Part shown: in pieces, positions 10,570-29,187 of the stretch
How positions within the stretch are numbered: the first letter of the stretch is position 1
How the letters are laid out: every line of letters begins with the position of its first letter
From: Burkholderiales bacterium
Lineage (GTDB): Bacteria; Pseudomonadota; Gammaproteobacteria; Burkholderiales; SG8-41
Direction: 5' to 3'
DNA: 64,000 nt
Assembly (NCBI GenBank): GCA_019744975.1
Contig: JAIETP010000020.1
Span: 1 to 64,000 of the forward strand
Program-made: the position numbers and the translations under genes
Notes under the pieces: generated by a model
Database searches by the model: none
Told to the model about the DNA's origin: nothing
Seen by the model: only the letters and a program-made list of their open reading frames with translations

Positions 10570-10583
10570 GCGTGGATACTCCG

Positions 10584-10729
10584 GGGAATCTCTGAAGAAC
10601 CGTAGCGAGCGACGCGAGTGCAAGGAGCACGGCGCGCAGGAGCCGAGACATATCAAACTGGATAGGCGAGGCTCCGAGCACCGCGCGACGCAGCAATCGC
10701 GTCGCGCAGTAGGTTATTCAGAGATTCCC
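10584..10729. mobile_element. MITE-like element with 18-base terminal inverted repeats
   Basis: The ends GGGAATCTCTGAAGAACC (10584-10601) and the reverse complement of 10712-10729 match at 17 of 18 positions. The interior of about 110 bases is itself largely self-complementary, with GGAGCACGGCGCGC pairing roughly with GAGCACCGCGCGACG. It carries no gene. The end sequence resembles ends I associate with IS5-type elements in betaproteobacteria, but I see no transposase and no clear target duplication. Its right edge coincides with the stop codon of the Bug gene, and its left edge lies 14 bases before the LigJ start, so it may affect ligJ expression. Confidence 0.65.
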
Positions 10730-11697
10730 TAATTGGCCTCGATTTTAGCCCTCCTGATCACCGGCACCCAGCGTTTCTGTTCTTCGCTGATGAACTTCGT
10801 GTAATCGCTGCCGCTCGACGGCGCGGAGTCGATGCCGCGGTCCTTCAGCTGTTTGACCACGTCGGCTGCGTTCAGCGCGGCAGCGAAGTCCTTGTTCAGG
10901 CGGGCGCTGACAGCCGGCGGTGTTTTTGGCGGAGCCGACAGGCCGTACCAGTTGATCGCGAGGTAACCCTTGACGCCGGCTTCGGCGATGGTCGGCACAT
11001 CGGGCAGCGCTTCGGCGCGTTTTGCGCCGGTGACGCCCAGCGCGCGGGCCTTGCCCGACTGCACATGCGGCACGGCCGTGGAAATCACCGCCATGAACGA
11101 AGGCACATGGCCGGCGATCAGGTCGGTGATGGCGGGGCCGCCGCCTTTGTATGGCACGTGGTTCAGGCTGACACCGGTCATGCCTTCGAGCAGTTCCACG
11201 GCGAGGTGGCCGGGGCTGCCGATGCCGGAAGTGGCGTAGTTGACCTTGCCGGGCTGGGCTTTGGCATTGGCGATGAATTCACCGAGGTTTTTCGCCGGTA
11301 CCGAAGGATGGGTGATCAGGATGTTCTGCAGCGTGACCAGCATGCCGAGGTGGGTGAAATCCTTCATCGGGTCGTAAGGCACTTTCTGAATGGCGGGGCT
11401 GACCACCATCGAACCGATGTGCGACATGCCGACCGTATGGCCATCCGGTTCTGCACGCGACAGGATCTGCATTGCAATCACGCCGTTGGCGCCGGGACGG
11501 TTGTCAACGATGACCTGATTGCCGAAGCTGGCGGCGAGTTTGGGTTGCAGGATACGGGCGACCAGGTCGGTGGCGCCACCGGGCGGGAAGCCGACGATGA
11601 AACGTACCGGTTTGGTTGGCGCCCAGTCGGCGGCGAACGCGGGGACCGTGATGCCTGCCGCGGCGATGATGGTGGCAATGCGGAGCAGCGTTTTCAT
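10729..11697 (-). CDS. Bug-family (TctC) periplasmic receptor
   Basis: Start at 11697 (AGGAATTCTTCTC upstream). The 322-residue product has a signal peptide ending PAFAADW and the family strands PVRFIVGFPPGGATDLVAR, DNRPGANG, LNHVPYKGGGPAITDL, and PTIAEAGVKGYLAINWYG with the typical WYGL. It is a secreted solute-binding protein for a carboxylate-type ligand. It lies between the LigJ gene and another Bug gene in the same orientation but is cut off from the latter by a strong terminator at 11744-11778. Its TAG stop lies at the edge of the MITE-like element. Confidence 0.9.
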   Translation of the reverse strand: MKTLLRIATIIAAAGITVPAFAADWAPTKPVRFIVGFPPGGATDLVARILQPKLAASFGNQVIVDNRPGANGVIAMQILSRAEPDGHTVGMSHIGSMVVSPAIQKVPYDPMKDFTHLGMLVTLQNILITHPSVPAKNLGEFIANAKAQPGKVNYATSGIGSPGHLAVELLEGMTGVSLNHVPYKGGGPAITDLIAGHVPSFMAVISTAVPHVQSGKARALGVTGAKRAEALPDVPTIAEAGVKGYLAINWYGLSAPPKTPPAVSARLNKDFAAALNAADVVKQLKDRGIDSAPSSGSDYTKFISEEQKRWVPVIRRAKIEAN

Positions 11698-11743
11698 GAG
11701 AAGAATTCCTGATGGGTGAATGTGTGTGTCGCAACATTGTGAC

Positions 11744-11778
11744 AAAAAAAAGCCTGCGGGGCTATTGCCCCGCAGGCT
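11744..11778 (-). terminator. Rho-independent terminator
   Basis: A perfect 12-base stem AGCCTGCGGGGC with a four-base loop is followed on the minus strand by eight T. It sits just 3' of the Bug gene ending at 11836 and would end the PrpD-PdxA-Bug transcript. Confidence 0.9.
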
Positions 11779-11835
11779 CATATATCTAAAGAAACAGTTT
11801 AGTTTTGTTCTGCAGTTGCCGGCTTGGTCCGTATC

Positions 11836-12864: not shown

Positions 12865-13893
12865 TCAAGCCGCTGCGTCAGCGGCTTTTGCTGCTTTTCG
12901 TCCGGCAGCCAGTTTTGTGGCCAGCGTGAAAGCGTGTTCCATCGCGCCGGGATCGGCCTTGCCCTGGCCGGTGATGTCGTAGGCCGTGCCGTGGGCGGGC
13001 GTGGTGAAAACGGTTTTGAGGCCGGCGGTTACGGTGACGCCCTTGTTGAAGCCGAGCAGCTTGGTCGCGATCTGGCCCTGGTCGTGGTACATCATCACCA
13101 CGCCGTCGAAGTCGCCTTTCAGCGCTTTCAGGAAAATCACGTCGGATGAAATCGGGCCTTCGCAGTTGACGCCGGCGGCGCGGAGTTTGTCGACGGTTGG
13201 GCGGATGACGCGGATTTCTTCGTCACCGAACAGGCCGTTTTCGCCGTTGTGCGGGTTCAGCGCGGCGACACCGATGCGCGGGCTGGTTTTGCCTGCCGCG
13301 CGCAATGAATCGTTGGCGAGGTGAATGGCGGAAGTGATGCGCTCCGGGGTCACCATGTTGACGGCTTCGCGCAGCGCGACATGCGAAGTCACGCGGAAAG
13401 TGCTGAACTGGTCGATGACGTTCATTTCACCGAAAAAGCCGCTGTGGTCGGTGAGTTTGGCGAACATCTGGTGCTCGTCATTGAATTTCCAGCCGCCGCG
13501 GTTCATTGCGCCCTTGTTCAGCGGTGCGAAGCAGATGCCGTCGAGTTTGCCGGCCATGGCGAGGTCGATCATGAATTTCAGCGTGTCGCCGGCGAGTTTA
13601 CCGGCTTCGTCCGAAGAAACACCCTGCGGGAATTTAGCCGGGTCGGTATTGCCGAGTTCGAGCAGCGGCAGATCCTGGCGCGGCCAGGTCACTTCATCAA
13701 TGCTGCGATAGACGGTGTGCGGAATTTTGACGCCGGCGTTGCGCATGCCGAGTTCGAGTACGCGTTTATCGCCAATGATGACTACGTTCGCGAGCTGCGC
13801 GGGTTTGCCGGAGGCCAGCAGTTTGGCCGCGATTTCGGGGCCGATGCCGGTGACATCACCGAGCATCAAGCCGATGCGGGGAAGAGTATTCAT
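12865..13893 (-). CDS. PdxA-family NAD-dependent dehydrogenase (PdxA2/TphB-like)
   Basis: The 342-residue protein has the PdxA landmarks PRIGLMLGDVTGIGPEIAAK at the N-terminus, TDHSGFFGE in place of the usual GHTE metal-ligand strand, VVMMYHDQGQIATKLLG, and HGTAYDITGQGKADP. The family oxidises a secondary alcohol beside a carboxylate or phosphate and decarboxylates the product. Members serve vitamin B6 synthesis, 4-phosphothreonate/erythronate catabolism, or terephthalate dihydrodiol oxidation (TphB). The catabolic neighbours and the altered GHTE motif argue against B6 synthesis. It lies 30 bases from the PrpD-family gene, so the pair is probably co-transcribed. Confidence 0.85.
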   Translation of the reverse strand: MNTLPRIGLMLGDVTGIGPEIAAKLLASGKPAQLANVVIIGDKRVLELGMRNAGVKIPHTVYRSIDEVTWPRQDLPLLELGNTDPAKFPQGVSSDEAGKLAGDTLKFMIDLAMAGKLDGICFAPLNKGAMNRGGWKFNDEHQMFAKLTDHSGFFGEMNVIDQFSTFRVTSHVALREAVNMVTPERITSAIHLANDSLRAAGKTSPRIGVAALNPHNGENGLFGDEEIRVIRPTVDKLRAAGVNCEGPISSDVIFLKALKGDFDGVVMMYHDQGQIATKLLGFNKGVTVTAGLKTVFTTPAHGTAYDITGQGKADPGAMEHAFTLATKLAAGRKAAKAADAAA

Positions 13894-13923: not shown

Positions 13924-15360
13924 CTATTTTTTCGCTTTTGCCGGCTTTTTGCGGGCGGGGCTGATGGCCAGCAACCGGGTCAGTTCGCGGGTGCTGCGGA
14001 GTTTTTCAAGCTCGTACACCATATTGATGATTTTCCCGGCGCTCGTTTCCGACAGCCCGCCCCAGGTGGCGCATTCCATGAACTTGGCGGCGACCTCATC
14101 ATCACTCATCGGATTGGCCGGGCTGCCTTTGCCGAAGTCGGCACTGCCGCTGATGGTGCGGCCATCCTTCAATTCGATGTCGATGAGGGTGGTCATTTTT
14201 TCGTAGCCGGCGGCTTCAGCCTTGGGATGCACGCCGAAATCGATGAGTCCGATGGTGCGCTGCACATCGGCGCGATTGACCATGGCGTCGGTGAACTCGG
14301 CGAGTCCGGCGCGGCGTTCCAGCAGCAGAATGGCGATGCAGAACTCCATGCTGAACTTGGCTTGCAGTTCATTTTTCGGACGGCGATGAATCAGCGTGTT
14401 CGGCATGTGGCGGTTGGTGCCGACCCGGACTTTTGCAACTTGCGAAGGTTTGATGTCGTGTTTAAGCACAAGTTCAAGCATCACGCCCATGCCGGGATGA
14501 GTCAGTGAACCGCTGGGGTGGGGCTTGATCGACACGCCGGGCATGGCGAATGTCCACGGTTTGCCGAGTTTGCCGTGAATGGCCTGCGCTTCATAACCGC
14601 CACCCGCGGCTTTGAAAAATCCGCGATTGGCTTCGAGACCGTTGCCGGCGGCGGTCCAGCCGAGTTTGACCAGTTCGGCGGCGAGCACGCCGGATTCTGC
14701 GGCGCGACCGGGATGGAAGGGTTTGGTCATGGTGCCGAAGTTTTCGCGCAAACCGGCGGCCTGGCTGGCGCCGAGGCTCAATACTTGCGCGGTTTGCGCG
14801 ACATCGAGACCGAGCAGACGCGCAGCACCGGCGGCGGCGCCGATGGCGCCCATGGTCGCGGTGGAATGAAAACCATCAGCGTAGTGCCGCGGGTTGATGG
14901 CTTCGGCGATTTTGGTTTCGACTTCAACCGCGATCTGGAAAGCGGTCAGCAGGTCGAGCCCGGAACGGTTGTCGCGTTCGGCGAGGGCGAGCACGGGAGG
15001 CAGTGCCGGTGCGGTGGGGTGGGTCAGCAGGCCGTAGACGCGGTCTTTGGCGACGGCGAGCTGGGTATCGTCGTAATCGTCGGCATGGATGGCGATGCCG
15101 TTGGCGAACGCGGCGAAACGCGGCGGCACTTTCAGCGCAGTGCCGATCACGGTCGCGCCCTTGTCCAGCGGCACACCCAGGGTTTTCAGATAGTTGCGCA
15201 CAATGTGGCCGGACTCGGCGGCATTGCCGGCAAATGCGAGACCCAGACCGTCAAGCAGGGAGCGTTTGCCGAGGTGCATCACCTCGCGCGGGATTTGTGC
15301 GGGCCTGGTGCGGGTGATGAAGGCGGCGATTTCGGCGGTCAGCGAATAAGGCTGGGTCAT
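13924..15360 (-). CDS. MmgE/PrpD-family protein
   Basis: The 478-residue protein has the all-helical PrpD N-terminal domain with KRSLLDGLGLAFAG near residue 30 and GTALKVPPRFAAFANGIAIHADDYDDT near residue 90, then TMGAIGAAAGAARLLGLD and KPFHPGRAAESGVLAAEL. All match the family signature. PrpD dehydrates 2-methylcitrate and close relatives decarboxylate cis-aconitate, so a branched carboxylate is the likely substrate. It is the first gene of the minus-strand run that continues into PdxA, Bug and possibly LigJ, and it is divergent from the HpaI-type aldolase across 124 bases. A lysine-rich KKPAKAKK tail ends the protein. Confidence 0.87.
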   Translation of the reverse strand: MTQPYSLTAEIAAFITRTRPAQIPREVMHLGKRSLLDGLGLAFAGNAAESGHIVRNYLKTLGVPLDKGATVIGTALKVPPRFAAFANGIAIHADDYDDTQLAVAKDRVYGLLTHPTAPALPPVLALAERDNRSGLDLLTAFQIAVEVETKIAEAINPRHYADGFHSTATMGAIGAAAGAARLLGLDVAQTAQVLSLGASQAAGLRENFGTMTKPFHPGRAAESGVLAAELVKLGWTAAGNGLEANRGFFKAAGGGYEAQAIHGKLGKPWTFAMPGVSIKPHPSGSLTHPGMGVMLELVLKHDIKPSQVAKVRVGTNRHMPNTLIHRRPKNELQAKFSMEFCIAILLLERRAGLAEFTDAMVNRADVQRTIGLIDFGVHPKAEAAGYEKMTTLIDIELKDGRTISGSADFGKGSPANPMSDDEVAAKFMECATWGGLSETSAGKIINMVYELEKLRSTRELTRLLAISPARKKPAKAKK

Positions 15361-15484: not shown

Positions 15485-16252
15485 ATGAAAAATCCGATTC
15501 GTGCCGCGCTGCAGCGTGGCGAAACCGTCACTGGCCTGATCCTCTTTACCGGCAGTCCGATCATCACCGAACTGGCCGCCGCTGCCGGCATCGATTTTGT
15601 CATTATCGACATGGAGCACAGCGCGCTCGACCTCGACCGCTGTGCGCACATCATCCGTGCCGCCGATGCCGCCGGCATCACGCCGTTTGTGCGGGTGCCG
15701 GAATCCGATCCCAACCTGATTCTAAAATTGCTGAACATGGGTGCTGCCGGCATCGCGCTGTCGCATGCAACACGTGAGAACTGCGCGAAAGCCCTTGAGG
15801 CCGCGCGTTATGCGCCGGAGGGCAGCCGCGGTGCCTGTGCCATCGTGCGTTCCGCCGGTTATGCGCCGGGTGACTGGGATGCGCATGTACGCCAGGCCAA
15901 TGACGAGATGATGGTGATCCCGTTGATCGAAGACACGCCCACGCTGGAAGACTTTGAAGCGATGGCGGCGATGCCCGGGCTGGAAGTGTTTTTCATCGGG
16001 CCGACCGACCTGTCGATCGCACTGGGTGTGCCGCATGCCACCTTTGATGAGCCGAAAATGAGTGCTGCATTGGAAAAAGTGGTCGCTGCAGCACGCAAGC
16101 ACGGCAAATACGTGATGACCACCATCGGCAACAAACCCGACCCGGTGTACGGCAAATCGGTGCGCAAGCGCGGTGTGCAAGCCATCGTGCTCGGCACCGA
16201 TGGACATTTATTTTTGGATGTATGCCGACGGCTGAACGCCGTTAAAACCTGA
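15485..16252 (+). CDS. HpcH/HpaI-family class II aldolase
   Basis: The 255-residue protein carries IDFVIIDMEHSALDLD near residue 37, with the metal-site Glu/Asp strand, PFVRVPESDPNLILKLLNMGAAGI with the catalytic Arg, and VFFIGPTDLSIALG near residue 170 with the second metal Asp. The family cleaves 4-hydroxy-2-oxo acids to pyruvate and an aldehyde, or 4-carboxy-type substrates to pyruvate plus oxaloacetate. Set against the LigJ/PdxA/PrpD run, it is the obvious candidate for the final carbon-carbon cleavage, an inference from position. It is followed by a palindromic repeat and a BKACE gene. Confidence 0.88.
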   Translation: MKNPIRAALQRGETVTGLILFTGSPIITELAAAAGIDFVIIDMEHSALDLDRCAHIIRAADAAGITPFVRVPESDPNLILKLLNMGAAGIALSHATRENCAKALEAARYAPEGSRGACAIVRSAGYAPGDWDAHVRQANDEMMVIPLIEDTPTLEDFEAMAAMPGLEVFFIGPTDLSIALGVPHATFDEPKMSAALEKVVAAARKHGKYVMTTIGNKPDPVYGKSVRKRGVQAIVLGTDGHLFLDVCRRLNAVKT

Positions 16253-16448: not shown

Positions 16449-17333
16449 ATGAATAAAAAACTCATTATCACCGTGCGCGTCAACGAATACATGTCGCGCG
16501 ACATCAACAAAAACGTGCCGTTCACGCCGGACGAAATCGCCGAGACCGCCGCCGAATGCCGTGCTGCCGGCGCGTCGATCATTCATTTCCATGCGCGCAA
16601 TCCCGATGGCGGCAAATGCCATACGCCGGAGGTCTATGCCGAGATTGTCGCCAAGATCCGCGAGAAGTGCGACATCCTGATCGACTCCACGCTGGGGCAG
16701 ATCACCGTCAATGAAGATGAAAACCGTCTGGCGCATATCAAGCTGATGGGCCAGCACAGCAAAACCCGCCCGGATTTTGCCGCGGTGGACACCGGCAGCA
16801 GCAACATCGATGCCTACGATCCGGTGGCGAAAAAATTTCTCACCACCAACAAGATCTACAAAAACAGCACCGAAACCTGCCTGTTCCTCGCCAAGGGCAT
16901 GACCGACGCCGGTGTGAAGCCGCATCTGTCGGTATGGGCGGTGCCATTCGTACGCATGGTCGAGGCTTTTCTCGACATGGGCGCGGTGAAGGAGCCGGCT
17001 TATGTGCAGTGCGTGCTGGCTGAGGGCGGCATTGTCGGCGCGCATCCCTGCACGACACGCGGACTGGAAGCGCTGATCGATTTCATGCCATCCCATCGCC
17101 GCATCGAATGGACGGTGGCCTGCAAAGAAGGCAATTTGTTCAACGTCGCGACCACTGCGCTGGAGCGCAATGGGCATTTGGCGCCAGGCATTGGTGATTA
17201 TCCCTATCCGGAAATCGGCTGCCCGAGCAATGCCGAACTGGTGCGACGTTTCGCCGAACTGGGGCGTGCGGTGGGGCGTGAGCCGGCGACGACCGATGAG
17301 GCACGGGCGATGCTGGGGATTGCGGCGCGCTGA
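16449..17333 (+). CDS. BKACE-family beta-keto acid cleavage enzyme
   Basis: The 294-residue protein has IIHFHAR with the metal-binding His46 and His48, LIDSTLGQ, the VKPHLSVW and VGAHPCTTRG strands, and a C-terminal NAELVRRFAELGRAVG helix. The DUF849/BKACE family uses Zn and acetyl-CoA to convert a beta-keto acid into acetoacetate and a new acyl-CoA. The opening ITVRVNEYMSRDINKNVPFTP departs from the usual ITCAxTG start, suggesting an unusual subfamily. It sits in the same direction as the HpaI aldolase and GlcG-like genes; the CoA-transferases elsewhere could handle its products. Confidence 0.85.
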   Translation: MNKKLIITVRVNEYMSRDINKNVPFTPDEIAETAAECRAAGASIIHFHARNPDGGKCHTPEVYAEIVAKIREKCDILIDSTLGQITVNEDENRLAHIKLMGQHSKTRPDFAAVDTGSSNIDAYDPVAKKFLTTNKIYKNSTETCLFLAKGMTDAGVKPHLSVWAVPFVRMVEAFLDMGAVKEPAYVQCVLAEGGIVGAHPCTTRGLEALIDFMPSHRRIEWTVACKEGNLFNVATTALERNGHLAPGIGDYPYPEIGCPSNAELVRRFAELGRAVGREPATTDEARAMLGIAAR

Positions 17334-20878: not shown

Positions 20879-22162
20879 ATGGGGCATACCATCGCCGAGA
20901 AGATTCTCGGCCATCACGCAGGCGGTAAACCGGCAAAAGCCGGCGAAATCGTCGTTGCGGACGTTGACTTTGCGATGATCCATGATGCGCGTGCCGGCAA
21001 CGCGCTGAAAATGATCGAAAAGCTGGGTGCAAAGTCTTTACCCCATGTCAAACGCACTGCATTGGTGCTTGATCATTATTCGCCACCGCCGAACATGGAG
21101 GCGGCCAATACCCATGTCGCGATGCGCGAGTTCGCCGAAAAACACGGTTCGCCGATTTACGACGTCGGTGACGGCATTTGCCACCAGGTGTTGCCCGAGG
21201 GCGGCCACCTGACCTGTGGTGATCTGGTGGTCGGCACGGATACCCATTCGACGACTTACGGCGCGTTCAACGCCTTCGGCACCGGTGTCGAAGGCACGGA
21301 CGTATCCGCAGTGATGATGACCGGCAAGTTGTGGTTCCGTGTGCCGGATACCATCCATATCGATCTGCAGGGTGCCCTGCAGCCGGGGGTATGGGCCAAG
21401 GACGTGACGCTGCACATGTTGTCGCAGCTCGGCGCGGAAGGCGCGAATTACCAGGCGCTGGAATATGTCGGCTCGGGCGTATCGGCGATGGCCATCGACG
21501 ACCGCATGACCCTGTCGAACCATGCGGCGGAGCTGGGCGCGAAGGCGGCCTTGCTCGAAGCCGATGAAAAAAACCTTGCCTGGCTGAAAGCGCATCACGC
21601 CGCGACGCCGAAGCCGGTGAAAGCCGATGCCGATGCCATATACACGCGGCGCATCGTGATCGACACCGCTAAGCTGCCGCCGCAAGTCGCGCGCCAGCAC
21701 CATATCGACGACGTGGTTGGTGTGCCGGAGGTGTCCGGCCAGAAAATCCAGGTGGCGCTGATCGGCACCTGCACCAACGGACGGCTCGATGATATCCGCC
21801 AGGCTGCGGCGATCCTCAAGGGGCGCAAGCTGGCCAAAGGTGTGCGCATGATCGTCACGCCGGCATCGCGCGCGATTTATCTCGCGGCGATGCGCGAAGG
21901 CCTGTTTGACATCCTCACCTCGGCCGGCGCCTCCGTTGAAGCGGCGGGTTGCGGCACCTGCGTCAACATCACCGGCCACTACATCGCCGGCGACAAGCAG
22001 GTGGTGATTTCCAGTGCCAACCGCAATTTCAAGGGCCGGCTGGGTAATCCCAGTTCGGAAATCTGGATCGGTTCGGCGGCCACGGTCGCGGCTTCTGCTT
22101 TGACCGGATTTGTCACTGATGCACGCACCGTCGCCGGCGGCGACTGGCGGGCGGCGGCTTAA
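20879..22162 (+). CDS. LeuC-like aconitase-superfamily hydro-lyase, large subunit
   Basis: The ATG at 20879 follows AGGAGG; an in-frame ATG at 20843 is less likely. The 427-residue product shows TDTHSTTYGAFNAFGTGVEGTD, IGTCTNGRLDDIRQAA with the first cluster Cys, GCGTCVN with the other two, and SANRNFKGRLGNPSSEIWIGS. The 4Fe-4S ligands are thus intact. It matches the LeuC/HacA/DmdA class that hydrates or isomerises alkylmalates, such as isopropylmalate, homocitrate or dimethylmaleate. It pairs with the LeuD-like gene. Catabolic neighbours argue against leucine synthesis. Confidence 0.87.
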   Translation: MGHTIAEKILGHHAGGKPAKAGEIVVADVDFAMIHDARAGNALKMIEKLGAKSLPHVKRTALVLDHYSPPPNMEAANTHVAMREFAEKHGSPIYDVGDGICHQVLPEGGHLTCGDLVVGTDTHSTTYGAFNAFGTGVEGTDVSAVMMTGKLWFRVPDTIHIDLQGALQPGVWAKDVTLHMLSQLGAEGANYQALEYVGSGVSAMAIDDRMTLSNHAAELGAKAALLEADEKNLAWLKAHHAATPKPVKADADAIYTRRIVIDTAKLPPQVARQHHIDDVVGVPEVSGQKIQVALIGTCTNGRLDDIRQAAAILKGRKLAKGVRMIVTPASRAIYLAAMREGLFDILTSAGASVEAAGCGTCVNITGHYIAGDKQVVISSANRNFKGRLGNPSSEIWIGSAATVAASALTGFVTDARTVAGGDWRAAA

Positions 22163-22179
22163 ATTTTTAAAAGCGTTTC

Positions 22180-22271
22180 ACCGCCAAGACGCCAAGGACG
22201 CCAAGAAAAGCAAAAACCAGAATCGTTTTTAGTTTTCGGTTTTACCTTGGCGCTCTTGGCGTCTTGGCGGT
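22180..22271. repeat. Inverted-repeat element (CCGCCAAGACGCCAAG type)
   Basis: Arms ACCGCCAAGACGCCAAG at 22180 and its complement ending at 22271 form a stem of about 30 bases around a 30-base A/T-rich loop. It sits between the large- and small-subunit genes of one hydro-lyase, where a transcript hairpin could change the ratio of the two subunits. This palindrome type is, as I recall, dispersed in many proteobacterial genomes. Confidence 0.75.
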
Positions 22272-22287
22272 AAAAAAGGATTTACAC

Positions 22288-22788
22288 ATGAACATCATCA
22301 AAGGCAGCGCCCGCGTGCTGGGCGACGAGGTCAGCACCGACATTCATTGCTCCAGCAAATACCTGCCGGGCAAGGACACCGCTTACATCGCGACAGTGGC
22401 TTTCGAGCAGGTGGCACCGGGGTTCGCCAAAGCTTTTAAAAAAGGCGATGTGCTGGTCGCCGGCAAAAACTTCGGCATCAATTCATCGCGTGAACAGGCG
22501 GTACACATCATGCATCAAATGGGTGTCGCGGCGATTGTCGCGCCGTCTTTTGGCCGGCAGTTTTTCCGCAACGCGATCAACAACGGGCTGGCGGTGATCG
22601 AATGCGACACCGGCGGGATCAGCGCCGGTGACGTGATTGAAATTGATCCGTCATCGGGGCGTGTGACTGTGGCCGCGCGCAACATCACCCGTGCCGCTCC
22701 GCCGCTGCCGGCGGCGGTGCAGGCTTTGCTGAAGGCGGGCGGTTTGATCCCCTTCCTGCAAAAACATCCTGACTGGAACCTGAGCTAA
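22288..22788 (+). CDS. LeuD-like aconitase-superfamily hydro-lyase, small subunit
   Basis: I start at 22288 (MNIIKGSARVLGDEVSTD) because the earlier ATG lies inside the palindrome. The 166-residue protein has DEVSTDIHCSSKYLPGKD, VLVAGKNFGINSSREQAVH, the substrate-recognition region GINSSREQA, and PSFGRQFFRNAINNGLAVIE. These are the hallmarks of the swivelling small subunit of LeuCD-type and HacAB-type enzymes. It completes the active site of the LeuC-like subunit. YLPGK replaces the YLK strand often used to distinguish substrates, so the enzyme is not simply LeuD. Confidence 0.88.
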   Translation: MNIIKGSARVLGDEVSTDIHCSSKYLPGKDTAYIATVAFEQVAPGFAKAFKKGDVLVAGKNFGINSSREQAVHIMHQMGVAAIVAPSFGRQFFRNAINNGLAVIECDTGGISAGDVIEIDPSSGRVTVAARNITRAAPPLPAAVQALLKAGGLIPFLQKHPDWNLS

Positions 22789-22845
22789 AAATTGATGTAA
22801 CGAGGGGATGCTCCCCTCATGCTCACCAAGATTAGAGGCCACAAG

Positions 22846-24000
22846 ATGTTATGGCCTGAAAGGCAGAACGTGAATCTGAAAATTGAGCGTGTTGAAGTAT
22901 TCGGCGTGGCCATGCCGCTGGTGATGGAATTCAAGAACGCCTACCTGTCGAAATCGGTGGTGAAAAGCGTCATCGTGCGCATCACCGCCACCGGTGGCGC
23001 CGTGGGGTACGGCAATATCGATCCGACACCGGGTTATTCCAAGGAAAGCATCGAGGACAGCCTGGCGATGATCGAGTCTAGGCTGGCGCCGGCGGTGTTG
23101 GGCATGGATCCGACCAACATCCATCGCATCACAGCGAAAATGGATGCCACGGTGCAGGAGTTCTACGATGCCAAGGCGACGATCGACATGGCCTGCACGG
23201 ATCTCGCGGCGCGGGTGGCGGGTGTGGCGGTGCATACCTGGCTCGGTGGCGCGGTTAAAGACCGCTTGCATTTCAACGCCTGGATCAGTATCCAGTCGCC
23301 GGAAAACGCGGCCAGGGAAACGAAGGCCTGGCAGGATCAGGGTTTCCGCTCCTGCAAGATCAAGGTGGGCGCCGATATTCATGCCGACCGCGACCGCATC
23401 AAGGCAGTACGTGAGGCCTGTGGACCGGATTTCAACATCCGCATTGATGCCAATGCAGGTTATGACGCCGATACATCGATCAAACTCGCTGAACTGATCG
23501 CGCCGTACAAGCTGCAGTTGTTCGAGCAACCGGTGCCGGCCCATGACATCGCCGGCATGGCACGGGTGCGCAAGGCCGCCAATGCGGTCGGTGTGCCGAT
23601 CATGGCCGACGAGTCGGTGATTGATCATGCCAGCCTGATCAACATCATCCGTGCCGATGCCGCCGATATCGTCAAGGTCAAGGTCATGAAGCAGGGCGGT
23701 TTCCTCAATACCCGGCGCATGATCGCCACCGCGGAAGCCGCAGGCATCCGCTGTGTGGTCGGCCACGGTTTCGGTCTTGGGGTGAATACGATGGCGGAAA
23801 TCATGCTGGCCGCGACGTCCAACAACGTCATCGATGGGCTCGAGTGCGTGGGCCCGCTGAAAACCAAGGACGACATCGTCACCGAAAAACTCGACTTGTC
23901 CAAAGGCAGCATTGCCTTGCCGCAGGGACCGGGGCTGGGTGTCACGCTGGATGATGCCAAGCTGGTGAAATACAGGTTTGAAATCAAGAAGGCCGCATAA
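22846..24000 (+). CDS. Muconate-lactonizing-type enolase superfamily enzyme
   Basis: The start is uncertain. ATG 22846 has AGAGG seven bases upstream; ATG 22819 and GTG 22870 are also open. The 384-residue protein carries FRSCKIKVG (the KxK pair on strand 2), IRIDANAGYD, LQLFEQPVP and IMADESVID, three carboxylate metal ligands, and VKVKVMKQGGF with the opposite lysine. This is the MLE subgroup pattern: dual-lysine chemistry on a carboxylate, as in cycloisomerase, racemase or epimerase. It lies 57 bases after the LeuD-like gene. It may racemise or lactonise the branched hydroxyacid handled by the LeuCD-like enzyme; this is inference. Confidence 0.85.
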   Translation: MLWPERQNVNLKIERVEVFGVAMPLVMEFKNAYLSKSVVKSVIVRITATGGAVGYGNIDPTPGYSKESIEDSLAMIESRLAPAVLGMDPTNIHRITAKMDATVQEFYDAKATIDMACTDLAARVAGVAVHTWLGGAVKDRLHFNAWISIQSPENAARETKAWQDQGFRSCKIKVGADIHADRDRIKAVREACGPDFNIRIDANAGYDADTSIKLAELIAPYKLQLFEQPVPAHDIAGMARVRKAANAVGVPIMADESVIDHASLINIIRADAADIVKVKVMKQGGFLNTRRMIATAEAAGIRCVVGHGFGLGVNTMAEIMLAATSNNVIDGLECVGPLKTKDDIVTEKLDLSKGSIALPQGPGLGVTLDDAKLVKYRFEIKKAA

Positions 24001-24024
24001 CGCGGCTGCAGACGGAGAATGAAA

Positions 24025-24981
24025 ATGAAAATAAAACAATTAATTGCGTCATTGGTGCTGGCGGGTGTTGCCGGCATGGCCACAGCGCAGACCTGGCCGA
24101 CGCGCACGATCACCATCCTGTGCTGGTCTGCTGCCGGTTCGCCGGTGGATATTTATGCGCGTACGCTGGCCAAGCTGCTGACCCCCGAGCTGGGGCAGAA
24201 CGTGGTGGTGGAGAACCGCACCGGCGGCTCCGGCATTGTCATGGTCAATATGCTGGTGCGTGGCGCGACCGATGGCTACACCATCGCGGCGAATACGCTG
24301 TCGCTGGCGACCTTGTTCAGCGAAAAAACGGCGCAGTTCAAGTCCGAGGACCTGCAGATGGTGGCACGGTCGCAGATCGATCCCTACGGCCTGATCGTGC
24401 ATACCTCGACGCCGTTCAAGAGCATTGAGCAATTCGTTGCATTTGCCCGCAAAAAACCGGAATACCTGAACATCGGCGGCCCGTTTTCGATCAGCTCGCA
24501 CCGTGTGGCCTGGGAAGTGTTTGCGGATGTGGCCAAGTTCAAGACGACCTGGGTGCCTTACCCCGGCGGCGGTCCGGCGCTGACAGCGATCGCCGGCGGG
24601 CATATCGATGCGGCAGCGACCAATCCCGGCAACGTCAAGCCGATGATCGATGCCGGCAAGGTGCGCGTTCTGGCGGTGTCTTCGGACAAGCGGCTGGAGG
24701 ATTTCAAGGACGTGCCGACGTACAAGGAAAAAGGCTGGGATGTCGTGCGTTACCAGTGGCGCGGCATCATGGTGAAGACCGGTACGCCGAAGCCGATTGT
24801 TGACCGGCTGGCGTCGGCGATCCAGAAGGCGCAGCAGACCCAGGAGTGGAAGACGTACCTGGCGCGGGTATCGCAGCTCGACGGTTTCCAGGGGCCCGAT
24901 GCCTTCCGTGCGCAGCTGATGCAGGACGTCAAGGAAACGGACGCGGTGAAGAAAAAACTCGGACTAGTGGATACCCAGTAG
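24025..24981 (+). CDS. Bug-family (TctC) receptor, divergent type
   Basis: ATG 24025 has GGAG seven bases upstream. The 318-residue product has a signal peptide ending GMATAQTW. Its first ligand loop reads RTITILCWSAAGSPVDIYAR, where most Bug proteins have FPPGGxxD. It keeps GDxxGxxG-like ENRTGGSGIVM, TTWVPYPGGGPALTAIAGG and RYQWRGIMV. It is 24 bases after the enolase-superfamily gene and 59 before the lyase, so it sits inside the operon and probably binds its substrate. The altered loop suggests a different ligand from the other eight receptors. Confidence 0.87.
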   Translation: MKIKQLIASLVLAGVAGMATAQTWPTRTITILCWSAAGSPVDIYARTLAKLLTPELGQNVVVENRTGGSGIVMVNMLVRGATDGYTIAANTLSLATLFSEKTAQFKSEDLQMVARSQIDPYGLIVHTSTPFKSIEQFVAFARKKPEYLNIGGPFSISSHRVAWEVFADVAKFKTTWVPYPGGGPALTAIAGGHIDAAATNPGNVKPMIDAGKVRVLAVSSDKRLEDFKDVPTYKEKGWDVVRYQWRGIMVKTGTPKPIVDRLASAIQKAQQTQEWKTYLARVSQLDGFQGPDAFRAQLMQDVKETDAVKKKLGLVDTQ

Positions 24982-25040
24982 CCCATCACCGCTAACCGCG
25001 GAAACCACGAATCAAATCAGCAGGAACAACAGTAACGGAA

Positions 25041-25937
25041 ATGACGATGGCGAAACTCACGGTACGGCAGCAGTTGCGCAAACGTTTGACCGAGGGCGGC
25101 ATGATCGTGGCGCCGGGCATTTATGACGCCTATGGTGCGCGGCTGGTGCAAAAAGCTGGATATGAAGCGGTATACATGACCGGCAACGGCGTGTCGGCCA
25201 GCCTGCTCGGGCAACCCGATGTCGGCATGGTCGATCTGACCTTGTTTGCGGCGCATGCACACCGCTCGGCAGCCTGCGTCGACATTCCGCTGATCTGCGA
25301 TGCCGATACCGGTTATGGCAATGCGGTGAATGTGAGGCATACCGTGCGCGAGTTCGAGGCCGCCGGCGTGGCCGCCATCCACATCGAAGACCAGGTTGCG
25401 CCGAAACGCTGCGGCCATCTGCCGGGTTCGCGGCCCGTGGTTTCGCTGCAGGAACATGCCGGCAAGATCGAAGCAGCCGTGGCGGCGCGGCGCGATCCGG
25501 ATTTCATCATCATCGCCCGCACGGATGCGGCGACCGGACTGGGCCTGGATGAGGCCATCCGCCGCGGCCAGGCCTACCGCAAGGCGGGTGCCGATGTGGT
25601 GTTTGTCGAGCTCAAGAACAGTCCGACCATTCTCGAAGACCTGAAACGTGTCACGGATGAATCCGGCGCGCCCTGCCTGGTCAACATCGACGGCGGCGGC
25701 AAACTCGGTGAGCTGACGGTGCCGGAAATCGAGAGGCTCGGTTTTCGCATTGCGATTTTTCCGGGACTGGCACGTAATGCCGCGGGTTTTGCCATCAGCG
25801 AAGCACTGGGTACCCTCAAGCGTGACGGCAATACCAAGGCCGTGCGTGACCGCATGCTGTCGATGCAGGAATACAACGAAGTGTTGGACCTGGGCGCTGT
25901 CGAGCAATGGGAGAAGCGTTATATGCAGGACCGGTGA
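25041..25937 (+). CDS. Isocitrate lyase/PEP mutase-family C-C lyase (methylisocitrate or dimethylmalate lyase-like)
   Basis: The 298-residue protein has GIYDAYGARLVQKAGYEAVYMTGNGVSAS, the metal strand LICDADTGYGN, AAIHIEDQVAPKRCGH with the catalytic-loop Cys, and IIIARTDA. PKRCGH is the KxCGH signature of true lyases (PrpB, isocitrate lyase, 2,3-dimethylmalate lyase) and is absent from PEP mutases. The reaction would be retro-Claisen cleavage of a 2-hydroxy-branched dicarboxylate to pyruvate (or glyoxylate) and a monoacid. Its neighbours, the LeuCD-like pair, recall dimethylmaleate hydratase plus dimethylmalate lyase of nicotinate fermentation. ATG 25047 is an equally possible start. Confidence 0.87.
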   Translation: MTMAKLTVRQQLRKRLTEGGMIVAPGIYDAYGARLVQKAGYEAVYMTGNGVSASLLGQPDVGMVDLTLFAAHAHRSAACVDIPLICDADTGYGNAVNVRHTVREFEAAGVAAIHIEDQVAPKRCGHLPGSRPVVSLQEHAGKIEAAVAARRDPDFIIIARTDAATGLGLDEAIRRGQAYRKAGADVVFVELKNSPTILEDLKRVTDESGAPCLVNIDGGGKLGELTVPEIERLGFRIAIFPGLARNAAGFAISEALGTLKRDGNTKAVRDRMLSMQEYNEVLDLGAVEQWEKRYMQDR

Positions 25938-25950
25938 TTTTTGCATATCG

Positions 25951-25971
25951 TTATAAGTATTTGTTTTTAAA
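25951..25971 (-). repeat. AT-rich intergenic repeat, copy C
   Basis: The 21 bases are the exact reverse complement of copy A at 1004-1024. The element lies 14 bases after a plus-strand gene stop, and its orientation is opposite to most other copies. Confidence 0.6.
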
Positions 25972-26026
25972 AATAAATTTATGAGTTTCCGATTGGCGCC
26001 TGCCATCCGGACCATGGAGCCCTGAA

Positions 26027-27265
26027 ATGGCCGTTGCCCGCAAGAAAAAAACCGTCGCCCGAAAATCCGCGGTGCGCAAACCCGTAGCTGCAAAAAAAAT
26101 GTTCAGTGTCAAAACCGTAAAAAAATCTTCAAATCCGCTGGGCCTTGAGAAAAAAGCGCCGGGCCAGTTCGACACGCTGCAGGAAATCGCCCTTGCCGCG
26201 CATCGCAAGCTGCCGGCTCCTGTATGGGATCACCTGATGGGTGGCGCCGATTCGGAAATGACCTTGCGGCGCAACCGCGCCAGTCTTGATGCACTGGCTT
26301 TGCGCCAGCGCGTGCTGGTCGATGTGCGCAAGATCGATCTCGGCACCACGCTGCTGGGTCAGTCGCTGGCCTTCCCGGTATTCCCGGCGCCGGTCGGCGG
26401 TTTCCTGAGCAAGGTGCATGAGGAAGGTGGTCCGGCCGTGGCGCGCGCCGCGGTGTCGCGTGGCACCACGGCATTCATCGCGACGGCGGCGAAACCCAGC
26501 CTGGAGGCGGCGCAGGCCGCCGTGGATCGCAAACTAATATTCCAGCTTTATGTACGCGGTGACCGGACCTGGATTGAAGGCATTCTCGACCGCGTCAAGG
26601 CGGCCGGTTACGCCGCACTGTGTGTGACCGTGGATCGCAACTATTACGGCCGCCGCGAGCGAGACATTGTCAGCGGCCTGCCGGTCAAGGAAGGTTTCGG
26701 CGACCAAACGTACCAGGCCAGCCTGAATTGGAAGGATCTGGTTTGGATGAAGGAGCGTGTCGGCCTGCCGCTGATCGCCAAGGGCATTGCCACCGCGGAA
26801 GACGCCGAACTGGCTGTTGAGCACGGTGCCGATGTGGTCTATGTGTCGAACCATGGCGGCCGCCAGCTCGATCATGCGCAGGGCAGCATCGAAGTGCTGG
26901 CCGAAGTGGTCAAGGCGGTGGGCGGCCGCGCTGAAGTGCTGGCCGACGGCGGCGTGCAGCGCGGCACCGACGTAGTCAAGATGCTGTGCCTCGGAGCCCG
27001 TGCAGTGGGCGTCGGCAAACTGCTGGGCCTGGCACTGAGCGCAGGCGGTGAGGCCGGTGTTGCACGCATGCTCGAGTTGATGGAGCTCGAAGTGCGCACC
27101 GCGCTGGGCCTGATGGGCGTGACTTCCATCAAACAGCTGGGGCCGCAGTGGCTGCGCGAGGTGCCGGTACTCGGTACGCCGAGTTCGGTCAGCGCTTACC
27201 CCTTGCTCGAAGAAGCCGTACGTCGCAGCGCCCTCCAAGAGGACTTGCTTCGCAGCCCCCGCTGA
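26027..27265 (+). CDS. FMN-dependent alpha-hydroxyacid dehydrogenase/oxidase with a lysine-rich N-terminal tail
   Basis: The 412-residue protein begins with about 40 residues rich in Lys, Arg, Ala and Val (RKKKTVARKSAVRKPVAAKK), like a bacterial histone H1-type tail. The LldD-type TIM barrel follows. FPVFPAPVGG binds FMN, FQLYVRGDR has the active-site Tyr, TVDRNYYGRRERD follows, LIAKGI has the flavin Lys, and VSNHGGRQLDH has the catalytic His and Arg. It would oxidise an (S)-2-hydroxyacid, consistent with the preceding hydro-lyase and lyase genes. The start is well placed, so the tail appears genuine; its role is unknown. Confidence 0.88.
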   Translation: MAVARKKKTVARKSAVRKPVAAKKMFSVKTVKKSSNPLGLEKKAPGQFDTLQEIALAAHRKLPAPVWDHLMGGADSEMTLRRNRASLDALALRQRVLVDVRKIDLGTTLLGQSLAFPVFPAPVGGFLSKVHEEGGPAVARAAVSRGTTAFIATAAKPSLEAAQAAVDRKLIFQLYVRGDRTWIEGILDRVKAAGYAALCVTVDRNYYGRRERDIVSGLPVKEGFGDQTYQASLNWKDLVWMKERVGLPLIAKGIATAEDAELAVEHGADVVYVSNHGGRQLDHAQGSIEVLAEVVKAVGGRAEVLADGGVQRGTDVVKMLCLGARAVGVGKLLGLALSAGGEAGVARMLELMELEVRTALGLMGVTSIKQLGPQWLREVPVLGTPSSVSAYPLLEEAVRRSALQEDLLRSPR

Positions 27266-27395
27266 ACGTCGAACGTCTTGTCGCAACTCGACGACAGTTG
27301 CACACATTGTTGGACATGGTTAAAACCGATGGTCTGCCCGGATATAAACAGGCCTGTCGGCATCACAGAATAAAGAAATGAAGGAGGAGCGGTCA

Positions 27396-28451
27396 GTGTA
27401 CAAACTGGGAATACTCGAAGGCGACGACATCGGTCTGGAGGTGGTGCCCGAATGTGTGAAGGTGATGAAAGCAGCCGCGGCGAAAGCCGGCGTGCAGATT
27501 GAATGGCTGCCGCTGCCGATCGGACGCAAGGGCCATGAGTCGCACGGGCACACGATGCCGCAGGTGACGGTGGACACGCTGAAAACGGTCGATGGCTGGG
27601 TGCAGGGCCCCATCGGCCACAATGCCTATCCGCGTACCGACAACACCTGGATCAATCCGCCGCTGCGCAAAAAATTTGAATTGTTCGCGAATGTGAAACC
27701 GGTGAAGTCCTACCCCAACCTGCCTTCGCTGCACAAGGACGTGGACATCGTGTTCCTGCGCGAAACCACCGAAGGCATGCAGTCGGGCAGTGTGGTGTTT
27801 GCCGGCTCCGGCGAATTCCAGCCCAATGACGACATCGCCGTTGGCATGCGCGTGGTGACACGCAAGGGGGCGAGCCGCGTCGCACGCGAGGCTTTCGAGA
27901 TCGCACGGACGCGCAAACGCAAGAAAGTCACGGCCCTGCACAAGGAGCCGGTGTACCGGCTGGTCTGCGGCATGTTTGCGCAGGAATGCCGCAAGATGGC
28001 GAAGAATTACCCTGATGTCGAATTCGATGAAGTGCTGATCGACGGTTTTGCAATGAAGGCGGTGATGAAGCCGCAGCAGTACGATGTGGTGGTCACCACC
28101 AACCAGTTCGGCGACATCGTCACCGACCTCGGTGCCGGACTCGTCGGCGGCCTCGGCCTCGCACCGGGATTGGTGGTCGGTGAAAAACAGGCGATGGCGC
28201 AGGCCACGCACGGCTCGGCACCGGACATCGCCGGCAAGAACATCGCCAATCCCTACGCCATGATCATGTCGGGCAAGATGTTGTTCGAATGGCTGGGCCG
28301 CACCCGTAATGACCCCAAAGCCACTGCGGCCGCAGCGCTGATCGATGCGGCGGTTGACAAAGTGATTGCCGAAGCAAAATCCCTGACCGGCGACCTTGGC
28401 GGCAAGGTGGGCACCACGCAGATGGGTGATGCCATCGTGGCAGCGCTTTGA
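27396..28451 (+). CDS. LeuB/isocitrate dehydrogenase-family beta-decarboxylating dehydrogenase
   Basis: The GTG at 27396 follows GGAGGAG at correct spacing; an ATG at 27378 overlaps that site. The 351-residue protein has LGILEGDDIGLEVVPE, VFLRETTEGMQSG, HKEPVYRLVCGMF with the conserved Lys, NQFGDIVTDLGAGLVGGLGLAPG with metal Asps, and ATHGSAPDIAGKNIANP. The family oxidises and decarboxylates 3-substituted malates. In the TEGxYxG motif the catalytic Tyr is replaced by Gln (TEGMQSG), a change that may redirect substrate use. With the LeuC/LeuD-like genes it completes a LeuBCD-like set. Confidence 0.87.
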   Translation: MYKLGILEGDDIGLEVVPECVKVMKAAAAKAGVQIEWLPLPIGRKGHESHGHTMPQVTVDTLKTVDGWVQGPIGHNAYPRTDNTWINPPLRKKFELFANVKPVKSYPNLPSLHKDVDIVFLRETTEGMQSGSVVFAGSGEFQPNDDIAVGMRVVTRKGASRVAREAFEIARTRKRKKVTALHKEPVYRLVCGMFAQECRKMAKNYPDVEFDEVLIDGFAMKAVMKPQQYDVVVTTNQFGDIVTDLGAGLVGGLGLAPGLVVGEKQAMAQATHGSAPDIAGKNIANPYAMIMSGKMLFEWLGRTRNDPKATAAAALIDAAVDKVIAEAKSLTGDLGGKVGTTQMGDAIVAAL

Positions 28452-28476: not shown

Positions 28477-29187
28477 ATGATAAAAATATCAATAAAAACA
28501 ATAACTTATTTGTTTTTATCGATGATGATTGTGGTGCCTGCCGGCGCCCAGCCAACGCAGTCCAGGACTGCGCAAAAAACGCCGCACAAAACGCCGCACA
28601 AGATGCAACACAAGCCGCAGGCCATGCAAAAAAAGCAGGTCAGGCCGATGCGCGGCAAACTGGAAAAACTGGAGTGCAAACTCGGCACCGAAGACCGCCA
28701 TGCACGCATTGCCGTCGAGCTGATCGGCGGGCGCGTCAAAAGCCTGGCCTATTATTCGAAGTGGAAACCGCGCACCTGCTCGGTGCATATCGTCCGGGAT
28801 GATGCGTACAGCAAGTGGGAGGATCCGGGCAGCGTGACGGTGGTTACACTCAACGAGGAGAAGGGCGCATTCCTGATCGATTACAGCCGATCTTCGGTGA
28901 AATTCCTGTTTCGCGACATCGACCGCGAACGGTTTTGCGGCATGTCCGGTAAAATTACCGGAAGCCTGACGGTGACCCGCGGCCGGGCCCATTGCGAACT
29001 CGAAGGAGTGATGGACGAGAATTTTGAGCTGCCGGTCGCGGCAAACCAAAACCCCGCAATTCCGGCCACAGCAGGCCTCGCAGTGGCTCCGGACATGACG
29101 CCGGTGCCGGCTCCGACGGCGGTACCAGCATCAGCACCAGCACCAGTACCAGCGGCTCCGACACCAGCACCGGCTGAAAAACCATGA
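28477..29187 (+). CDS. Exported protein with H/K-rich repeats and a Pro/Ala tail
   Basis: The ATG at 28477 gives a signal peptide (TITYLFLSMMIVVPAGAQ). The mature N-terminus has repeats of KTPHK/MQHKPQ. Next is a domain of about 120 residues with four cysteines (LECKLG, RTCSVH, RFCGMS, AHCELE) likely to form two disulfides. A tail of about 45 residues is low-complexity Pro/Ala (PVPAPTAVPASAPAP...). The domain is unknown to me. The tail could be a periplasmic linker or wall-spanning spacer. An AT-rich repeat copy at 28491-28516 lies inside the signal-peptide codons. No ribosome site is clear. Confidence 0.6.
   Translation: MIKISIKTITYLFLSMMIVVPAGAQPTQSRTAQKTPHKTPHKMQHKPQAMQKKQVRPMRGKLEKLECKLGTEDRHARIAVELIGGRVKSLAYYSKWKPRTCSVHIVRDDAYSKWEDPGSVTVVTLNEEKGAFLIDYSRSSVKFLFRDIDRERFCGMSGKITGSLTVTRGRAHCELEGVMDENFELPVAANQNPAIPATAGLAVAPDMTPVPAPTAVPASAPAPVPAAPTPAPAEKP
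28491..28516. repeat. AT-rich repeat, copy D (imperfect palindrome)
   Basis: AAAAACAATAACTTATTTGT reads as a near-palindromic variant of the family and is embedded in the start of the exported-protein gene, which suggests either a chance overlap or recruitment of the repeat as coding DNA. Confidence 0.4.

Follow-up and report, generated by a model that had tools for sequence, protein, structure and literature searches.

A small Bug-LeuC-LeuD-lyase cassette conserved among betaproteobacteria and probably used to consume a branched organic acid

A run of seven plus-strand genes occupies positions 20879-28451 of a 64,000 nucleotide stretch of DNA from a Burkholderiales bacterium of the SG8-41 lineage (contig JAIETP010000020.1 of assembly GCA_019744975.1), hereafter the window, and contains at its core a smaller gene cassette that is the subject of this analysis. 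The first two genes encode a LeuC-type large subunit, probably a [4Fe-4S] hydro-lyase of the hacA/PRK00402 subfamily (20879-22162; Pfam Aconitase, 293 bits), and a LeuD/DmdB-type small subunit with the clade-specific loop CSSKYLPGKD (22288-22788; Aconitase_C, 50 bits); the third core gene encodes a carbon-carbon lyase of the ICL/PEP-mutase superfamily that belongs to a clade of its own (25041-25937; PEP_mutase 163.9 bits, ICL 48 bits). Between LeuD and the lyase lie an enolase-superfamily enzyme of the MLE subgroup (22819-24000; MR_MLE_C, 193.5 bits) and a Bug/TctC periplasmic receptor (24019-24981; TctC, 157.9 bits against a cut-off of 27), and the lyase is followed by an FMN-dependent 2-hydroxyacid dehydrogenase with a Lys/Ala-rich N-terminal tail (26027-27265; FMN_dh, 345.7 bits) and a LeuB/IDH-fold protein of the GPIGH subfamily, which lacks the usual tyrosine of the TEGxY motif (27378-28451; Iso_dh, 270.3 bits). 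The MLE enzyme and the FMN dehydrogenase are lineage-specific. Successive intergenic gaps measure 125, 30, 18, 59, 89 and 112 bases. Two proteins probably start later than their longest open reading frames (ORFs): the MLE enzyme at GTG 22870, its relatives being mostly 372-382 amino acids long compared with 393, and the LeuB-like protein at GTG 27396, immediately 3' of GGAGGAG. The positions and families assigned to all seven genes in an earlier, sequence-only reading of this DNA are borne out by the ORF list, Pfam and NCBIfam.

Conservation of the gene order was followed in the best 80 of at least 537 confirmed relatives found by a genome scan with an alignment of eight LeuCs; to judge from their titles nearly all are betaproteobacteria, and many of them come from lakes or other freshwater habitats. 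Loci with too little contig on the side needed, including the lyase-less L091, are excluded from the callable denominators given here. LeuD lies next to LeuC, downstream, in 77 of 78 callable loci, and in 68 of 71 a lyase follows LeuC within 6 kb, an order that is far from chance; the three misses are L058 and L123, where the lyase is 6.5 and 7.5 kb away, and L068, which has none within 10 kb. The genes often touch or overlap, with approximate median gaps, measured from aligned starts, of 7 bases from LeuC to LeuD (n=79, 15 overlapping) and 14 bases from LeuD to the lyase (n=66, 24 overlapping). When the LeuCs are clustered at 90% identity, 36 of 40 clusters (the window's included) have at least one member with a downstream lyase, as do 6 of 8 clusters at 80% identity. 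LeuC occurs at 66% identity or more in 8 of 150 genomes of the order, the window's own genome counted, and the lyase at 71% or more in six, all of which are among the eight LeuC holders. Some Bug gene stands immediately upstream of LeuC in 49 of 72 callable loci. A plasmid collection yielded 38 records with a LeuC match, none reaching 60% identity.

The other genes of the run are kept only close to home. Where LeuC is at least 85% identical (14 loci), the lyase, the FMN dehydrogenase and LeuB are each present in 12 of 12 callable loci and MLE in 11 of 12, with a Bug gene downstream in 13 of 13 and immediately upstream in none of 13. The next identity band retains LeuB in four of seven loci and the FMN dehydrogenase in none of seven, and below 77% identity the lyase persists (50/52), whereas the FMN dehydrogenase and LeuB are absent (0/36 each) and MLE is found twice (2/36). 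Over the whole sample this amounts to 18/56 for MLE, 12/55 for the FMN dehydrogenase, 16/55 for LeuB and 18/57 for the window type of Bug receptor; even the close relatives L050 and L055 have no MLE match. Since MLE, FMN dehydrogenase and LeuB hardly occur beyond the near relatives, the conserved unit is the small Bug-LeuC-LeuD-lyase cassette, and the seven-gene run is an extended form of it that is specific to one lineage. Loci of Achromobacter, Polaromonas, Limnohabitans, Polynucleobacter, Zwartia and Sheuella share these four genes and little besides, so the enzymes that they encode may suffice. The sequence-only reading had put forward all seven genes as a candidate pathway and proposed conserved synteny as the check; the outcome is positive in a graded way, widely so for LeuC, LeuD and the lyase, and almost solely among near relatives for MLE, the FMN dehydrogenase and LeuB. 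The graded synteny thus rejects a widely shared seven-gene pathway, while the conserved neighbourhood supports a link between a LeuCD-type hydratase, an ICL-superfamily lyase and a Bug receptor. The cassette is real and conserved, but smaller than in the sequence-only reading, with lineage-specific additions. It is also present in named strains whose records are not marked as metagenome-assembled genomes (MAGs), namely Limnohabitans sp. 15K, Polynucleobacter sinensis and P. rarus. A closely similar run, with LeuC at 94% identity, occurs in a MAG titled Bordetella parapertussis (L045); this label is probably wrong, the other loci above 80% identity being titled as Burkholderiales or Betaproteobacteria MAGs.

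The active site of the lyase was compared across 72 plus-strand rows, the minus-strand lyases of another clade being left out. A paper on Pseudomonas aeruginosa PrpB names residues that bind Mg and pyruvate (PMC11982470), and these correspond, by motif and not by chain alignment, to D60, D87, D89, E116, Y45 and R160 of the window lyase. By the same motif match T47 stands at the position of a PrpB serine. All six residues are invariant in the 72 rows, together with K122 and C124 of the catalytic loop (K122-R123-C124-G125-H126 in the window); loop residue 123 is Arg in 65 rows, and the fifth residue is His in 21, Gln in 50 and Tyr in one, His belonging to the window group and Gln to most of the others. 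The score against the PrpB equivalog is 251, below its cut-off of 354.4. At the column of the PrpB arginine that we take to be Arg241, with the role that we assume for it, no readable row of the cassette clade has Arg, whereas both aligned PrpB chains do; one column earlier, Arg245 is Arg in 71 of 71 readable rows, a placement that may leave room for binding a third carboxylate.

A tree of 48 lyase rows contained 28 of the 72 cassette rows (the C4 lyase of the window genome is outside it, and two labels from C23 denote the same protein). The 28 sampled cassette lyases and one further lyase form a single clade (support 100/100) that excludes PrpB, petal death protein and dimethylmalate lyase; several rows are long branches, and we claim no order among them. 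The single solved 2,3-dimethylmalate lyase, in a tree that lacks the Eubacterium barkeri sequence, is itself a long, poorly placed branch that does not join the cassette clade. Structure was tried and rejected as a guide to the substrate: the AlphaFold model of the lyase is good (pLDDT 90), but in the list of 50 Foldseek matches there is little to separate PrpB from petal death protein or dimethylmalate lyase (TM-scores of 0.84-0.89 by query), and such near-ties offer no choice between di- and tricarboxylates.

The two LeuCD-type subunits were placed by curated families. LeuC scores 460 against TIGR01343 (cut-off 385.7) and 198.6 against the leuC equivalog TIGR00170 (cut-off 560), and LeuD scores 141.6 against the LeuD/DmdB family TIGR02087 (cut-off 108.95) and 113.6 against the leuD equivalog TIGR02084 (cut-off 245.85), so that each passes the first cut-off and falls short of the leucine-specific one. 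The cluster cysteines C298, C358 and C361 of LeuC are invariant in the eight aligned sequences. In LeuD the pattern KY-x-[PSTA]-[GN], which we take to be the recognition loop, and the motif SSREQ are present in 73 of 73 rows, with KYLPGKD in 49. The closest solved LeuC is the isopropylmalate/citramalate isomerase of Methanocaldococcus jannaschii, which also ranks third among eight LeuD matches, although its loop reads YLVY where that of the window reads YLPG and homoaconitase has YLRT, and the context of the cassette appears catabolic.

Because of these families and their intact active sites, the best reading of the cassette is hydration or isomerisation followed by cleavage of an imported branched acid to pyruvate and a small acid, to which we assign a probability of roughly 0.6. 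The Bug receptor would pass a branched acid, such as an alkylmaleate or alkylaconitate, to a tripartite transporter; the LeuC/LeuD heterodimer, to judge from its family and its intact cluster cysteines, would hydrate a cis double bond or isomerise a hydroxy acid to give a 2-hydroxy-2-alkyl succinate; and the lyase, with its intact Mg/2-oxoacid site and catalytic Cys, would cleave this product to pyruvate and a small carboxylic acid. Both the direction of the reactions and import through Bug are predictions. A precedent exists in Eubacterium barkeri, whose nicotinate fermentation involves the dimethylmaleate hydratase DmdAB and a 2,3-dimethylmalate lyase. The likeness lies in a LeuCD-type hydratase near an ICL-superfamily lyase with a catalytic Cys, in the place of the window LeuD within the curated LeuD/DmdB family and in the cluster cysteines of LeuC; the cassette differs in being betaproteobacterial, in carrying a Bug receptor and in its lyase, which forms a separate clade that the tree does not link to the one solved 2,3-dimethylmalate lyase. 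By analogy the cassette may work like the hydratase/lyase pair, and membership in that system is not established.

Several observations weigh against this reading. In the window itself 2.9 kb separate LeuC from the lyase, and LeuC-LeuD pairs occur without a lyase in G055, L068 and L091, although L088 and L092, relatives of the last, have one. Outside the window group the lyase loop is mostly KRCAQ or KRCGQ rather than KRCGH, and an altered reaction is therefore possible there. The flanks vary widely between genera, so the substrate may not be the same in all. The proximity of Bug genes is weak evidence, since such genes are very common in these genomes.

The substrate may belong to either of two classes, C5-C7 dicarboxylates such as citraconate and the dialkylmaleates, or tricarboxylates resembling methylaconitate. 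The dicarboxylates are favoured by the absence of the PrpB arginine and by the kinship with citramalate isomerase, the tricarboxylates by PrpR and by Arg245. One tentative proposal within the first class is a C5 acid, citraconate being converted to (R)-citramalate and cleaved by the lyase to pyruvate and acetate. Besides the isomerase that is the nearest solved LeuC, this is suggested by six loci of Zwartia, Sheuella and their kin, at which genes of a class III CoA-transferase family (c27) and a CitE/RipC-like lyase family (c16) lie divergent beside the cassette, an arrangement that resembles itaconate and citramalate routes; these flanks are not common to most loci, however, and the proteins tested (from L105 and L090) score far below curated cut-offs, at 189.7 of 750 for the CoA-transferase and 201.5 of 443 for the CitE-like protein. 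The Pseudomonas route for itaconate and branched short-chain dicarboxylates is described as proceeding through coenzyme A (CoA) esters by way of Ict, Ich and Ccl, with an MmgE/PrpD protein that is regarded as an isomerase (PMC9875883). That gene cluster enabled no growth on citraconate or (R)-citramalate (PMC9875883), which leaves room for another route for these acids. The two systems have in common branched dicarboxylates, an MmgE/PrpD member and a cleavage that forms pyruvate, and differ in that the Pseudomonas route uses CoA esters and the core cassette contains no CoA enzyme and no CoA-activating gene (PMC9875883).

About as tenable, though again well short of likely, is a tricarboxylate substrate (2-methylaconitate, an alkylcitrate derivative or aconitate), which would be cleaved to pyruvate or glyoxylate and succinate. 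PrpR senses 2-methylcitrate, and a PrpR-family activator above its curated cut-off (587.7 against 499.2 for one of the five proteins) is divergent from the cassette in all five loci tested, from Achromobacter, Polaromonas and a Comamonadaceae MAG, and is the sole PrpR above the cut-off in three of the five genomes. Five loci have a second member of the MmgE/PrpD family downstream of the lyase, in four of them as the very next gene, and a gene named PrpF lies near a related Variovorax set; Arg245, adjoining the PrpB Arg column, fits the same proposal. That column itself is never Arg in the clade, however, the LeuD loop lacks the arginine of the homoaconitase YLRT, and PrpR was seen at only 5 of the 80 loci, where its effector may have changed.

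Less probable than either is that the cassette encodes a CoA-free route by which betaproteobacteria of fresh water and soil break down dialkylmaleates, a route whose cleavage step would give pyruvate with propionate, butyrate or glutarate. Dimethylmaleate, ethylmethylmaleate and hematinic acid arise from oxidised chlorophyll, haem or flavins. We give similarly little credence to the alternative branch offered by the sequence-only reading, in which LeuCD isomerises a malate that the LeuB-like enzyme then oxidatively decarboxylates. LeuB is present throughout the closest callable loci and in part of the next band, but in none of those with more distant LeuCs, and its orthologs occur in genomes that have no cassette LeuC. 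The TEGxY tyrosine is missing in 37 of 37 GPIGH-subfamily rows (duplicates of the window protein and of one relative included), which makes this branch doubtful, although in two rows the next position is a Tyr and another residue could substitute. The window protein also has FANVKP where IDH has FANVRP or YANVRP, and scores 202.8 against the LeuB equivalog TIGR00169 (cut-off 353.2); its structure model was poor (pLDDT 58) and was not used. Up to three matches to this subfamily of LeuB/IDH-fold proteins (L131-L150) occur per genome in the order.

The cassette is very unlikely to stand in for the final steps of the methylcitrate cycle. The dehydrate-rehydrate-cleave chemistry of the cycle (PrpD, AcnD/PrpF, PrpB) is of the same type, PrpD-family neighbours and a PrpR-type regulator accompany some cassettes, and four of the five PrpR-linked genomes have no PrpB above the cut-off. 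The cassette hydratase is of another type, however, its lyase misses the PrpB cut-off and branches apart from PrpB in the tree, and a true PrpB is encoded elsewhere in the window genome, at C10 (422.9 against 354.4). Seven of the 12 cassette genomes tested have no AcnD above the cut-off, and six have no type II citrate/methylcitrate synthase above it (two are MAGs, in which gaps are possible, and four are titled strains); in this half of the tested genomes the cassette stands apart from the methylcitrate cycle. With the C10 PrpB, the position of the lyase outside PrpB and the missing synthases, the cycle was rejected as the main role, and the cassette is probably not part of it. A spare leucine isomerase with unrelated neighbours, suggested by the joint presence of LeuC, LeuD and LeuB folds, can be set aside, since LeuC misses the leuC cut-off widely, the lyase is a conserved partner and four other LeuCs of the same genome pass that cut-off, one of them (C7) in canonical leuCDB order, so that the cassette is separate from leucine synthesis and its LeuCD is not the sole leucine-synthesis isomerase, the case that the sequence-only reading had named as refuting its own proposal.

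Around the core, the extended form is wider than the seven genes. Divergent from the run lie an MmgE/PrpD-family enzyme (13924-15360, minus strand; MmgE_PrpD_N, 198 bits), whose nearest solved relatives are cis-aconitate decarboxylase and IDS-epimerase, and a PdxA-family dehydrogenase (12865-13893, minus strand; PdxA, 288 bits). With falling LeuC identity the former, which lies upstream, goes from 9/11 to 4/4 and 2/38 of the callable loci and the latter from 8/10 to 2/3 and 2/38, so that the tie of MmgE/PrpD to LeuC extends further out than that of the FMN dehydrogenase (12/12, 0/7, 0/36); this pair, which the sequence-only reading did not include, belongs beside the extended cassette. An HpcH/HpaI-family aldolase (15485-16252, plus strand; Pfam, 83 bits) and a beta-keto acid cleavage enzyme (BKACE; 16449-17333, plus strand; Pfam, 212 bits) are associated in near relatives, at 11 of 52 and 11 of 53 callable loci respectively. 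Between the BKACE gene and LeuC the window has an HbpS-like gene, an extra Bug gene and an FAD oxidoreductase; this stretch is variable, since several near relatives carry other genes there or none.

The MLE enzyme has the complete KIK, D-N, E, D and K motifs of its superfamily in 19 of 19 rows, residues to which we assign the customary roles by assumption, and scores 218 against muconate cycloisomerase TIGR02534 (cut-off 334.95); the nearest solved receptors of the window Bug protein are mixed and point to no single ligand. Together with the FMN dehydrogenase, the LeuB-fold protein, MmgE/PrpD and PdxA, the MLE enzyme and the downstream Bug receptor probably, if tentatively, serve to widen the substrate range or to feed the cassette. 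The N-terminal extension of the FMN dehydrogenase (26027-26170), which is Lys/Ala-rich and resembles a histone tail, measures about 30-70 residues and is present in 13 of 13 orthologs. Just past LeuB (28480-29184) is a gene for a protein without a Pfam match, whose family (cluster c9) is found in 13 loci, the window included. An amidohydrolase-family gene and a Bug gene on the minus strand (9553-10656 and 10732-11781) are perhaps another acid-catabolism unit. In Polynucleobacter rarus and its kin the cassette has CoA-transferase, enoyl-CoA-hydratase-type and 3-hydroxyacyl-CoA-dehydrogenase-type genes on one side, and on the other a GntR regulator, another MLE-family gene and an Ldh_2 dehydrogenase.

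LeuCD-lyase pairs recur elsewhere with lyases of other clades, the window genome included. That genome has further LeuC/LeuD sets at C23, C27, C39 and C4 (L042, L151, L152 and L043); two of these (C23 and C27) include an ICL-superfamily lyase, and one combines two LeuCs with a LeuB-like gene. Variovorax paradoxus VAI-C (L158) has a lyase, LeuC, LeuD, Bug, a PrpF-named gene and Bug in a single run. Six plasmid matches were inspected, one of them without annotation; on plasmids of Haloferax, Peribacillus and Halomarina (L155, L157 and L160) LeuCD is accompanied by a CoA-transferase and a gene of the HMG-CoA-lyase type, and the Peribacillus set has riboflavin-related genes nearby. Because some more distant LeuCD pairs lie near other ICL-superfamily lyases or CoA-transferase and HMG-CoA-lyase-type genes, hydration followed by cleavage of branched acids is probably a recurrent theme with varying partners.

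As to signals, a palindrome resembling repetitive extragenic palindromic (REP) elements lies between LeuC and LeuD (22180-22271), with 17-base arms at 22180-22196 and 22255-22271. An 18-base pattern of the arm occurs five times in the window genome and not at all in a backward-read control, and one copy (C23:21150) lies between the lyase and LeuC of the genome's second LeuCD-lyase set. Terminator-like sites number 11, with no excess over the 9.4 ± 2.9 expected from shuffled sequence, and a scan of the plus strand for promoter-like sites found none.

A search of open-licence literature found no description of the cassette gene set, in agreement with the sequence-only reading, which knew of no described pathway with exactly the seven genes. 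In a study of the Amazon River, tripartite transporters, Limnohabitans and Polynucleobacter are linked to terrestrial organic matter (PMC7597016). The cassette, as far as its genes can tell, probably lets its host and many freshwater relatives eat a branched organic acid. To our knowledge the Bug receptors of plankton bacteria are mostly without known ligands, and alkylmaleate hydration with aldol-type cleavage has been linked to genes only in nicotinate fermentation; the cassette would give genes to this pair of reactions. The LeuB-like subfamily without its usual tyrosine raises a second, smaller question. If the dialkylmaleate proposal were true, the use of tetrapyrrole or flavin debris as a carbon source by Polynucleobacter and Limnohabitans could be tested directly, and the occurrence of the cassette in named strains means that growth tests on a handful of branched acids could reveal what such plankton bacteria use as carbon.

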